From Actinomycetota bacterium (lineage in GTDB: Bacteria > Actinomycetota > Thermoleophilia > Miltoncostaeales > Miltoncostaeaceae): a DNA stretch of 64,000 bases. Shown here one piece after another: positions 31,656 through 38,101 of the stretch. The notes beneath the pieces are model-generated. The model was not told where the DNA came from. It saw nothing but the letters and a program-made list of their open reading frames with translations, and did not search any database. The position numbers and the translations under genes are program-made. Within the stretch, counting starts at the first letter, position 1; every line of letters starts with the position of its first letter. The stretch is taken from assembly GCA_016870155.1 (NCBI GenBank), contig VGCE01000004.1, forward strand, positions 62,001 to 126,000. The letters run 5' to 3'.

Positions 31656-31727
31656 GGTGACCGCGGAGAGGGTGACTGTCACCGAGAGGTGACTGTCACC
31701 GGGGTTTCCCGGGAGGTGACCGTCGCC
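31656..31727. repeat. Tandem GGTGACNGTCACC palindromes (copy A)
   Basis: Exact GGTGACTGTCACC at 31671-31683 and 31688-31700 (17-base period), with decayed units GGTGACCGCGG at 31656 and GGTGACCGTCGCC at 31715-31727. Each unit is an inverted repeat of GGTGAC. The same paired unit, with the same spacer and the following GGGGT, recurs at 63464-63500. It lies between convergent genes. Confidence 0.85.
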
Positions 31728-36251: not shown

Positions 36252-37238
36252 ATGTCCAGCCACCCCATCGAATTCTCCGAGGATCTGCAGGACACCTCGC
36301 CCGCCACCCGCATCGGGCTGTCGCGGGCCGGCGTGTCGCGATCGGCCAAGGCGATCCGCCTGGCCTTCGGCGGGTCCGAGCACTACATGGACGCCACGGT
36401 GGAGTGCGTGGTGGACCTCGACCCCGACCAGAAGGGCGTGCACATGTCGCGCTTCGAGGAGGAGGTCAACGAGGCCATCGACGCCGTGCTCATCGGCCAG
36501 GCGGTGGCGATCGAGGCGCTGGCCGCGAACATCGCGCGCCGCGTGGTAGAGCGCCAGGGCGCGCTGCGCGGCATGGCGACGATCCGCGCCCGCTATCCGG
36601 TGGAGAAGCGCACGCCCGTGACCGACGTCGCCACGCAGGAGATGTACGGCCTCATCGGCACCGCCGCCGCGCGTCCGGGCAGCAGCCGGCGCGCCGTGGG
36701 CGTGTCGGCCCAGGGAATGAACGCCTGCCCCTGCGCGCAGGGCCTGGTGCGCGAGCAGGCCGAGGCCGCGCTGGCCGCTGACGGCTTCACGTCGGACGAG
36801 ATCGACCGCATCGTGGCCCGCGTGCCCATCGCCACGCACAACCAGCGCGCGCGCGGCACGCTGATCGTCGGAAGCCCCGACGGCCGCGACGTGCCGGCCG
36901 ACGCGCTCATCGAGATCGTCGAGGACGGCATGTCGTCCGAGATCTACGAGCTGCTCAAGCGCCCCGATGAGCTCTACGTGGTTGACAAGGCCCACCGTCG
37001 CCCGCGGTTCGTGGAGGACTCCGTGCGCGAGATGATCGCCGGCGTCATCGCGCGGTTCCCGGAGCTGCCCGACGACGCCTTCATCTCGGCGCACCAGGAG
37101 AACTACGAGACCATCCACACCCACGACGTCGAGGCCGAGCGCCACGGCGTGCTCGGCGAGATGCGCGCCGAAGTGGCCGGCGGCGCCCACGCGCACCGCC
37201 ACCTCACCCTGCCGGAGTGGCTCGACGGCCCCACCTGA
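36252..37238 (+). CDS. folE2: GTP cyclohydrolase FolE2/MptA type
   Basis: Zinc/iron-dependent GTP cyclohydrolase I of type IB, making dihydroneopterin triphosphate for folate. 328 residues; hallmark G-M-N-A-C-P-C-A-Q with the metal-binding Cys, plus F-E-E-E-V-N-E-A-I and H-Q-E-N-Y-E-T-I-H-T-H-D. It follows the glutaredoxin gene by 20 bases, so it belongs to the same operon. The last two codons and stop (P-T-stop) lie inside the left arm of a large palindrome. Confidence 0.88.
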   Translation: MSSHPIEFSEDLQDTSPATRIGLSRAGVSRSAKAIRLAFGGSEHYMDATVECVVDLDPDQKGVHMSRFEEEVNEAIDAVLIGQAVAIEALAANIARRVVERQGALRGMATIRARYPVEKRTPVTDVATQEMYGLIGTAAARPGSSRRAVGVSAQGMNACPCAQGLVREQAEAALAADGFTSDEIDRIVARVPIATHNQRARGTLIVGSPDGRDVPADALIEIVEDGMSSEIYELLKRPDELYVVDKAHRRPRFVEDSVREMIAGVIARFPELPDDAFISAHQENYETIHTHDVEAERHGVLGEMRAEVAGGAHAHRHLTLPEWLDGPT

Positions 37239-37501
37239 GCCGCTCCGCCCAGCGCGCGGGGCGCCCGGGGGTCAGCAGAACCCCCGCCGAAAAAGCGCGA
37301 GAGGCGGGAGGCCCGTCACATGGGGGTGGCGGCGATCGCAGCCGGGGATGATGCGTTTGCGGTCCCCGCAAATGCCGATCCCGTTTCGGCGAGTGGCCGC
37401 CACCCCCATATGACGGGCCTGCCGCGCTGCTGTGGTGTTCGGCGGAGGTACTGCTGAGCCCCGGGCTTCACCGGATCGCTGGGCGGAGCGGCTCAGGTGG
37501 G
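37230..37501. repeat. 272-base imperfect palindrome between folE2 and plsY
   Basis: The left arm (37230-37362) and right arm (37366-37501) are inverse complements over most of their length, roughly three quarters by eye. The outer 25 bases of each arm (37230-37254 and 37477-37501) match perfectly. Other conserved blocks are AGGCCCGTCAYATGGGGG (37309-37326 with 37403-37420) and TTTGCGG/CCGCAAA around a three-base loop (37356-37372). Each arm contains the stop codon of one flanking convergent gene, encoding P-T-stop in both. RNA from either strand would form one long hairpin. Confidence 0.88.
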
Positions 37502-38101
37502 ATCCGGCGAGGCCTTGCGGCCGAGCTGGATGCGGTTCTCGGTGCCCGAGAGCAGGCGCTGGATGTTCTCGCGGTGCTTGATGATCACGAAGAGGCCGGC
37601 GAGGCCGATGAAGGCGACATACGACCAGGGCGCGCCGAAGGCCCAGGCGAGCGGGGCGGCGGCGAGGGCGCAGACGATGCTGGCCACCGATACGTAGCGG
37701 GTGAGCACGACGATGAGCACCCAGAGGATGATGAGCACGCCGCTGGCCGCGGGCACGAGGCCGATGAGCGCGCCGGCGCCCACGGCCACGCCCTTGCCGC
37801 CCTTGAAGCCGGTCCACACGGGGAATACATGGCCGATAATCGCCAGGGCGCCGGCGGCGATGGGCCACCACGGGCCGCCCACCACCCACTGGGCGATGAG
37901 CACCGCGAACGCGCCCTTGGCGATGTCGAGCACCATCACCGCGACGCCCGCCGTGCGCCCGAGGGTGCGGAACACGTTGGTGGCGCCCAGGTTGCCACTG
38001 CCCACGGTGCGCAGGTCAACGCCGTTGATGCGGCCGGCGAGGTAGGCGAAGGGGATGGAGCCCAGCAGGTAGGCCACCACGAGGACGAGGACCTGGTTCA
38101 C
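37493..38101 (-). CDS. plsY: Glycerol-3-phosphate acyltransferase PlsY
   Basis: Transfers acyl from acyl-phosphate to glycerol-3-phosphate, first step of phospholipid synthesis. 202 residues with about five membrane helices; motifs S-G-N-L-G-A-T-N-V-F-R-T-L-G, G-F-K-G-G-K-G-V-A-V-G-A and K-H-R-E-N-I. GTG 38101 overlaps the pgsA stop (GTGA), so both lipid genes are coupled. Confidence 0.92.
   Translation of the reverse strand: MNQVLVLVVAYLLGSIPFAYLAGRINGVDLRTVGSGNLGATNVFRTLGRTAGVAVMVLDIAKGAFAVLIAQWVVGGPWWPIAAGALAIIGHVFPVWTGFKGGKGVAVGAGALIGLVPAASGVLIILWVLIVVLTRYVSVASIVCALAAAPLAWAFGAPWSYVAFIGLAGLFVIIKHRENIQRLLSGTENRIQLGRKASPDPT

Follow-up and report, generated by a model that had tools for sequence, protein, structure and literature searches.

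In the window, by which we mean the whole stretch of 64,000 nucleotides analysed here, folE2 and plsY are convergent genes, and the interval between them is occupied by a long palindrome that runs into the last codons of both (Table 1). The original prediction described a near-continuous palindrome of 272 bases containing both stop codons, and folding of positions 37220-37510 bore this out, giving one continuous hairpin of -237.3 kcal/mol. The same interval, shuffled 200 times, gave a mean of -151.8 (sd 6.1; z = -14.1), and none of the 200 shuffles equalled the native fold. The folE2 stop codon (37236-37238) lies inside the outer left arm and the plsY stop codon (37493-37495, minus strand) inside the outer right arm. 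As predicted, the outermost 25 bases pair perfectly and both proteins end in P-T-stop, spelled CCCACCTGA on either side.

In a survey of some 1.2 Mb of the same genome, this was the longest palindrome. We scored inverted repeats in its convergent gene gaps with +1 per match and -2 per mismatch, relying on rough, scripted GC3-based gene calls, which were also used for the locus contexts. A score of at least 16 was reached in 8 of 142 gaps, folE2-plsY included, and at least five of the other palindrome-bearing gaps carried the GTGTCAGGCAC REP, which is a different repeat.

Table 1. Features of the folE2-plsY palindrome and its flanking genes (window coordinates).
Feature	Position	Strand	Evidence
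folE2; final two codons and stop within left arm	36252..37238	+	
Whole palindrome (nested hairpin element and locus-specific outer arms)	37230..37501	.	Fold, repeat finder
Outer left arm, locus-specific, with folE2 codons P-T-stop	37230..37254	+	Repeat finder; 25 nt, 100% complementary to 37477-37501
Module 2a, 5' strand, GAAAAAGCGCGAGAGGCGG, asymmetric internal-loop motif	37289..37307	+	Recurs at other loci and genomes
Stem between modules 2a and 1, left (inner) arm, pairs with 37396-37425	37304..37333	+	Repeat finder; 30 nt, 93% complementary
Core repeat (module 1 and its stems), recurrent in genome and genus	37318..37410	+	5 own-genome copies; 17/20 genus genomes
Module 1 internal loop, 5' strand, GATCGCAGCC	37334..37343	+	Largely invariant in 30 diverse copies
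Tip hairpin GCGTTTGCGG-TCC-CCGCAAATGC	37353..37375	+	Conserved TGCGG..CCGCA tip
Module 1 internal loop, 3' strand, GTTTCGGCGAGTGG	37383..37396	+	TTTCG part conserved in 30 copies
Stem between modules 2a and 1, right (inner) arm	37396..37425	+	Repeat finder
Module 2a, 3' strand, CCGCGCTGCTGTGGTGTTC	37422..37440	+	Recurs at other loci and genomes
Outer right arm, locus-specific, with plsY codons P-T-stop	37477..37501	-	Repeat finder; 100% complementary to 37230-37254
plsY; final two codons and stop within right arm	37493..38101	-	

A genus-specific family of nested hairpins

This palindrome belongs to a genus-specific family of nested, non-coding hairpin repeats and separates convergent genes that are almost contiguous in relatives. 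Its central part recurs elsewhere in the genome and the genus. The core is present at the folE2-plsY site and at four other places in the own genome. Within the genus, 17 of 20 genomes gave a match to a covariance model derived from 30 diverse copies, the exceptions being G024, G026 and G037; outside it, none of 229 genomes from across the class did so. A DNA search with the family gave matches in the window's genus and a single marginal match outside it, and a search of a plasmid collection and of viral contigs with the core gave no match. The 72 copies that we extracted, many of them at contig ends, were sorted by hand into at least 15 loci from the rough gene calls; most of these lie between convergent genes. 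Copies were also found between co-directional genes (ftsH-folP and folK-MSQIDEL), and one locus is a divergent promoter. At the latter, a diverged copy is seen in many genomes of the genus (L105, L196, L197, L198 and L194; C7:7714-7823 in the own genome), with arms that extend to TAGGAT/TAGGCT boxes, and this copy may have been co-opted for regulation.

Comparison of the copies showed that what is conserved is a set of asymmetric internal-loop modules enclosing a tip hairpin, while the stems are locus-specific, nearly perfect in their self-complementarity and fast-changing, with arms that co-vary. Module 1 is the internal loop GATCGCAGCC / GTTTCGGCGAGTGG enclosing the tip TGCGG..CCGCA, and in the window it is itself enclosed by module 2a (GAAAAAGCGCGAGAGGCGG / CCGCGCTGCTGTGGTGTTC), a motif that recurs at other loci and in other genomes with or without module 1 inside. 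Module 2 exists in two forms, 2a and 2b, which are clearly related (shuffle p ~0.0005). The resemblance of 2b to module 1 is weak (shuffle p ~0.05), and a common origin of modules 1 and 2 was dropped for that reason. The nestings found were module 1 alone, 2a around 1, 2b around 1, 2a around 2b and 2b around 2b, with successive modules 39-46 nt apart. Stems between and outside the modules are locus-specific yet self-complementary. The stem between modules 2a and 1 differs among copies with its pairing retained, and the outer arms vary in sequence from genome to genome and largely retain their pairing.

Hairpin-forming DNA can mislead assemblers, and contigs of this genus do break, turn round or misjoin at palindromes (L141, L142, L145, L174, L189, L190 and L192); L141 carries folE2 on both sides and L142 joins two loci. 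Some of the fragmentation and chimaerism in metagenome bins of this genus comes from these hairpins. However, the folE2-plsY element was found whole, in the same place, in independently assembled relatives (L033, L034, L035 and L048), deep within contigs (e.g. 112.8 kb and 42.8 kb), and the stop codons in its arms are in each gene's own frame. An assembly artefact is therefore hardly credible as its source. Separately, L148 (G025:C44) and L149 (G023:C91) are apparently identical stretches although their genomes are otherwise quite distant within the genus, which may reflect contamination of one bin.

Concerted arms, inverted cores and gene ends

In the 30-copy alignment, no Watson-Crick pair type was missing from the stem outside module 1. 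As many as 14 sequences had both partners of a pair replaced, and one-sided changes were nearly absent. Across nine loci, the two arms of one hairpin were 93.5% identical as complements, whereas same-side arms compared across genomes were 63.8% identical, so that the arms resemble each other more than they resemble their orthologues, as in an inverted repeat maintained by template switching. In a tree of the folE2-plsY arms, the two arms of each genome clustered together rather than with the same sides of other genomes, with moderate support (80-94). These three observations indicate that the arms of a hairpin evolve together. Inversion of the spacer, a further feature of inverted repeats maintained in this way, was seen as well: the core is inverted between relatives at most compared sites, and one or more genomes have it flipped relative to the flanking genes at 6 of the 9 loci (folE2-plsY, YciI-ANT, folK-MSQIDEL, ADVLER, GELEEE-NHP and the divergent promoter). 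At folK-MSQIDEL, arms reading GACGCGTAGGGGCGG.. are common to G034, G029 and G023 and nearly so to G032, and in G023 and G032 the core runs the other way.

Strong covariation of this kind, together with the position of most loci at convergent gene ends, would fit a functional bidirectional terminator or structured RNA, in which convergent transcripts form the hairpin and compensatory changes and selection keep it paired. Selection on RNA from one strand predicts more G.U than A.C pairs, but 60 distinct tight arms contained 957 Watson-Crick, 7 G.U, 10 A.C and 22 other pairs, and the covarying arms thus bear no sign of one-strand RNA selection. Moreover, a terminator scan of the hairpin found no T-run (U-tract) after the stem and no terminator-like site, and Rfam gave only sub-threshold matches, the best in the hairpin scoring 24.7 bits against a gathering threshold of 80. 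The orientation of the core varies, not all copies lie at convergent gene ends, some being flanked by co-directional genes and one locus being a divergent promoter, and some relatives are element-free at the same site. These results make the terminator or structured RNA of the original prediction an improbable explanation. Covariation free of G.U pairs would also follow from selection on pairing at the DNA level, for a cruciform or a protein site.

The ends of the two genes differ between genomes with and without the element. In element-free relatives the folE2-plsY gap is 9-11 bp (G037 and G024) or the stop codons overlap (G033, G025, G035 and G039), compared with about 254 bp where the element is present. 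Without the element, folE2 ends in GPE, GPA, LDA or LEA, never in T before the stop, and the last residue of plsY is mostly T (GQT, GAT or AAT). With the element, folE2 ends in GPT (GGT in G030, GPS in G038) and plsY in DPT, and ACCTGA stands on both sides in five genomes where both gene ends are visible. Element-free relatives do not carry P-T on both genes, which favours insertion in the comparison that the original prediction had set as its test, although the T-stop of plsY predates the element. In G036, the gap holds a relic of 75 bp whose perfect arms of 20 bp read GGCCCCACCTGATCCACCCC on either side. The gap in G027 (locus L037/L234) is filled by a member of a third family of hairpins, centred on CTCCGGGGCGAAGCCCCGG, which also occurs in the own genome (C1:283932-284063).

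Similar mirroring was observed at two other loci. A YciI-like gene ends in GCCTGAC, constant in the element-bearing genomes of this group. Its convergent partner ends in ANTAVE, ANTAV or ANTGA in genomes that lack the element or whose arms stop short (G000, G032 and G023), and in genomes with long arms it ends in ANTPA, with GCCTGAC mirrored; this end is short, and shared ancestry or chance could be partly behind it. At folK-MSQIDEL, the end of folK, GACGCGTAG, is mirrored immediately upstream of a TAGGAT box. Taken together, the comparisons at the three loci show that mirrored stops are locus-specific and accompany long arms. Since the gene-end part of the arms differs among loci, delivery of the stop codons as cargo of the element was ruled out; it is probable instead that the arms grew into the gene ends. 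Two of the origins first considered for the palindrome therefore hold in part. A mobile element agrees with a repeat-family core that is absent where the genes nearly abut, but it did not supply the stops; an inverted duplication describes the gene ends, which are mirror copies particular to each of these loci.

The arms could also be older than the core. Small palindromic elements may have entered the centres of pre-existing palindromes, such as terminators or other elements, leaving the older target as arms around a guest core, with nesting produced by repeated insertion into tips. Consistent with this, modules nest tip-in-tip at similar spacing, and G028 carries an identical unit (modules 2a and 1 with their stems) at three loci inside outer palindromes that differ by locus, of 24-26 bp at L118 and L152 and about 12 bp at L151; at L118 the flanking palindrome is GACTGACCCCGCCCCATAGCGCTC, mirrored. 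Relatives carry elements at the same loci, however, so that conversion between resident copies in G028 is as likely as fresh insertion and explains this pattern equally. Plain hairpins of about 13-15 bp stand beside a stop codon at some element-free loci (G038 and L371), and such hairpins could have given part of the arms; the one at L371 counts in favour of the insertion reading. Against this, the ordinary convergent gaps of the own genome almost never contain perfect hairpins of 20 bp or more, the element-free folE2-plsY gaps of 0-11 bp are too small for such a target, and arm turnover continues after insertion. Ordinary terminators were rejected as the arm source because the 142 convergent gaps of the own genome are almost free of hairpins this long. 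Insertion into existing hairpins is thus a partial rival to template switching, and we regard it as rather unlikely to account for the arms.

A proposed origin of the palindrome

We regard it as probable that the palindrome is a hairpin element that is, or once was, mobile, and whose arms have been homogenised, inverted and extended into the flanks by template switching or hairpin-templated repair. A hairpin or cruciform would form when the DNA becomes single-stranded during replication or repair, and one arm could then act as the template for the other through either of these processes. Copying of arm on arm would homogenise the arms, invert the centre and lengthen the palindrome at the expense of adjacent neutral sequence, up to the point where coding constraint halts its growth; at folE2-plsY, the last two codons and the stop of one gene would have been mirrored onto the other. 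Matched but fast-changing arms, no preference for G.U pairs, inverted centres and outward growth would all be expected from such copying. Template switching has been documented to homogenise the arms of inverted repeats and invert their spacers (PMC8604942), and both to generate perfect hairpins and to preserve them (PMC8794818). The genomes compared are nearly all metagenome bins, one per species, and among these mostly different species no single template-switch event between near-identical strains was caught.

Template switching alone leaves the spread of the modules and the conservation of their loops unexplained, and this suggests an enzyme acting in trans that recognises the conserved module loops. 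Such an enzyme would carry modules to new sites and to the tips of other hairpins, and existing copies within one genome may convert each other. No mobilising enzyme or cognate transposase was seen near the copies. No target-site duplication was found, although the boundaries of the element are impossible to fix within flanks that are themselves palindromic. A more speculative proposal, which we consider doubtful, is that an enzyme as yet undescribed and specific for hairpins or cruciforms, whether a recombinase, a transposase or a polymerase-coupled system, uses the conserved loop modules as its recognition sites and itself inserts hairpins into tips, flips centres and copies arms. If true, this would define a class of bacterial mobile element that builds its own palindromic arms from host DNA, gene ends included.

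The family provides a natural, many-copy system in which to watch palindromes of a bacterial chromosome stay perfect and grow, offering dozens of orthologous hairpins with matched, fast-changing arms, inverted centres and rewritten gene ends. Strong two-sided covariation is usually taken as proof of a functional RNA; that it can arise here with no sign of RNA selection bears on the discovery of structured RNAs. The family also draws attention to hairpins at which metagenome assemblies break and are miswired.

Comparison with known systems

Like the REPs associated with RAYT transposases (PMC3733652), the elements described here are dispersed extragenic palindromes, and the own genome also contains true REPs. 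REPs are small, 20-40 bp, with conserved arms (PMC3733652), whereas the element reaches 272 bp and combines a conserved centre with variable arms, the reverse of REP architecture. The presence of two Y1_Tnp genes above the Pfam cut-off in the own genome, along with palindromic repeats, could suggest a REP moved by a RAYT (Y1-type) transposase. However, the REPs on either side of the two RAYT genes are others, GTGTCAGGCAC at one gene and GGTGACWGTCACC at the other; the element is not adjacent to either gene and does not share the flanking-REP sequence. This neighbourhood argues against the two transposases as movers, and we consider a RAYT-moved REP very improbable.

A separate REP family of the own genome consists of ACCCCGGTGTCAGGCACTTAACC and its mirror around a variable, often palindromic centre (C5:59255-59345, C4:26130-26214, C1:369812-369893, C4:141406-141463, C4:182092-182148 and at least six more sites). 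It flanks the RAYT-type transposase gene at C3:216347-216676, which allows this REP to be matched with its RAYT. The other REP type, GGTGACTGTCACC, occurs at window positions 31671, 31688 and 63481, on both sides of the second RAYT gene (C2:239076-239402) and at C2:204351-204477.

Bacterial MITEs are short, non-coding, dispersed palindromic elements that are present or absent at orthologous sites. The element likewise comes and goes at orthologous sites, as the folE2-plsY gap illustrates, but it has no conserved terminal inverted repeat: its arms are locus-specific, and common ends were seen only in the identical units of one genome. No cognate transposase was seen near the copies, and the palindromic flanks hide the place where the target-site duplication of a MITE would lie.

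Among organelle genomes, repetitive and double-hairpin elements (PMC2800124) and the palindromes of Volvox (PMC2670323) are similarly hairpin repeats that are mostly intergenic. Two sponge types are described as having conserved stems and differing loops (PMC2800124), in contrast to the conserved internal loops and tip and the variable stems of the present family. The coding palindromes of nematomorph mitochondria, for which the authors put forward repeat conversion or template switching, are also long, near-perfect, and gained and lost (PMC6649704); they lie within mitochondrial genes, whereas those described here are chromosomal and intergenic and share a conserved core. The features in common with template-switch (quasipalindrome) mutagenesis (PMC8604942, PMC8794818) are co-evolving arms, two-sided changes, an inverted centre and altered coding ends. 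What differs here is a repeat family with conserved internal-loop modules, forming hairpins of up to 272 bp at many orthologous sites within one genus.
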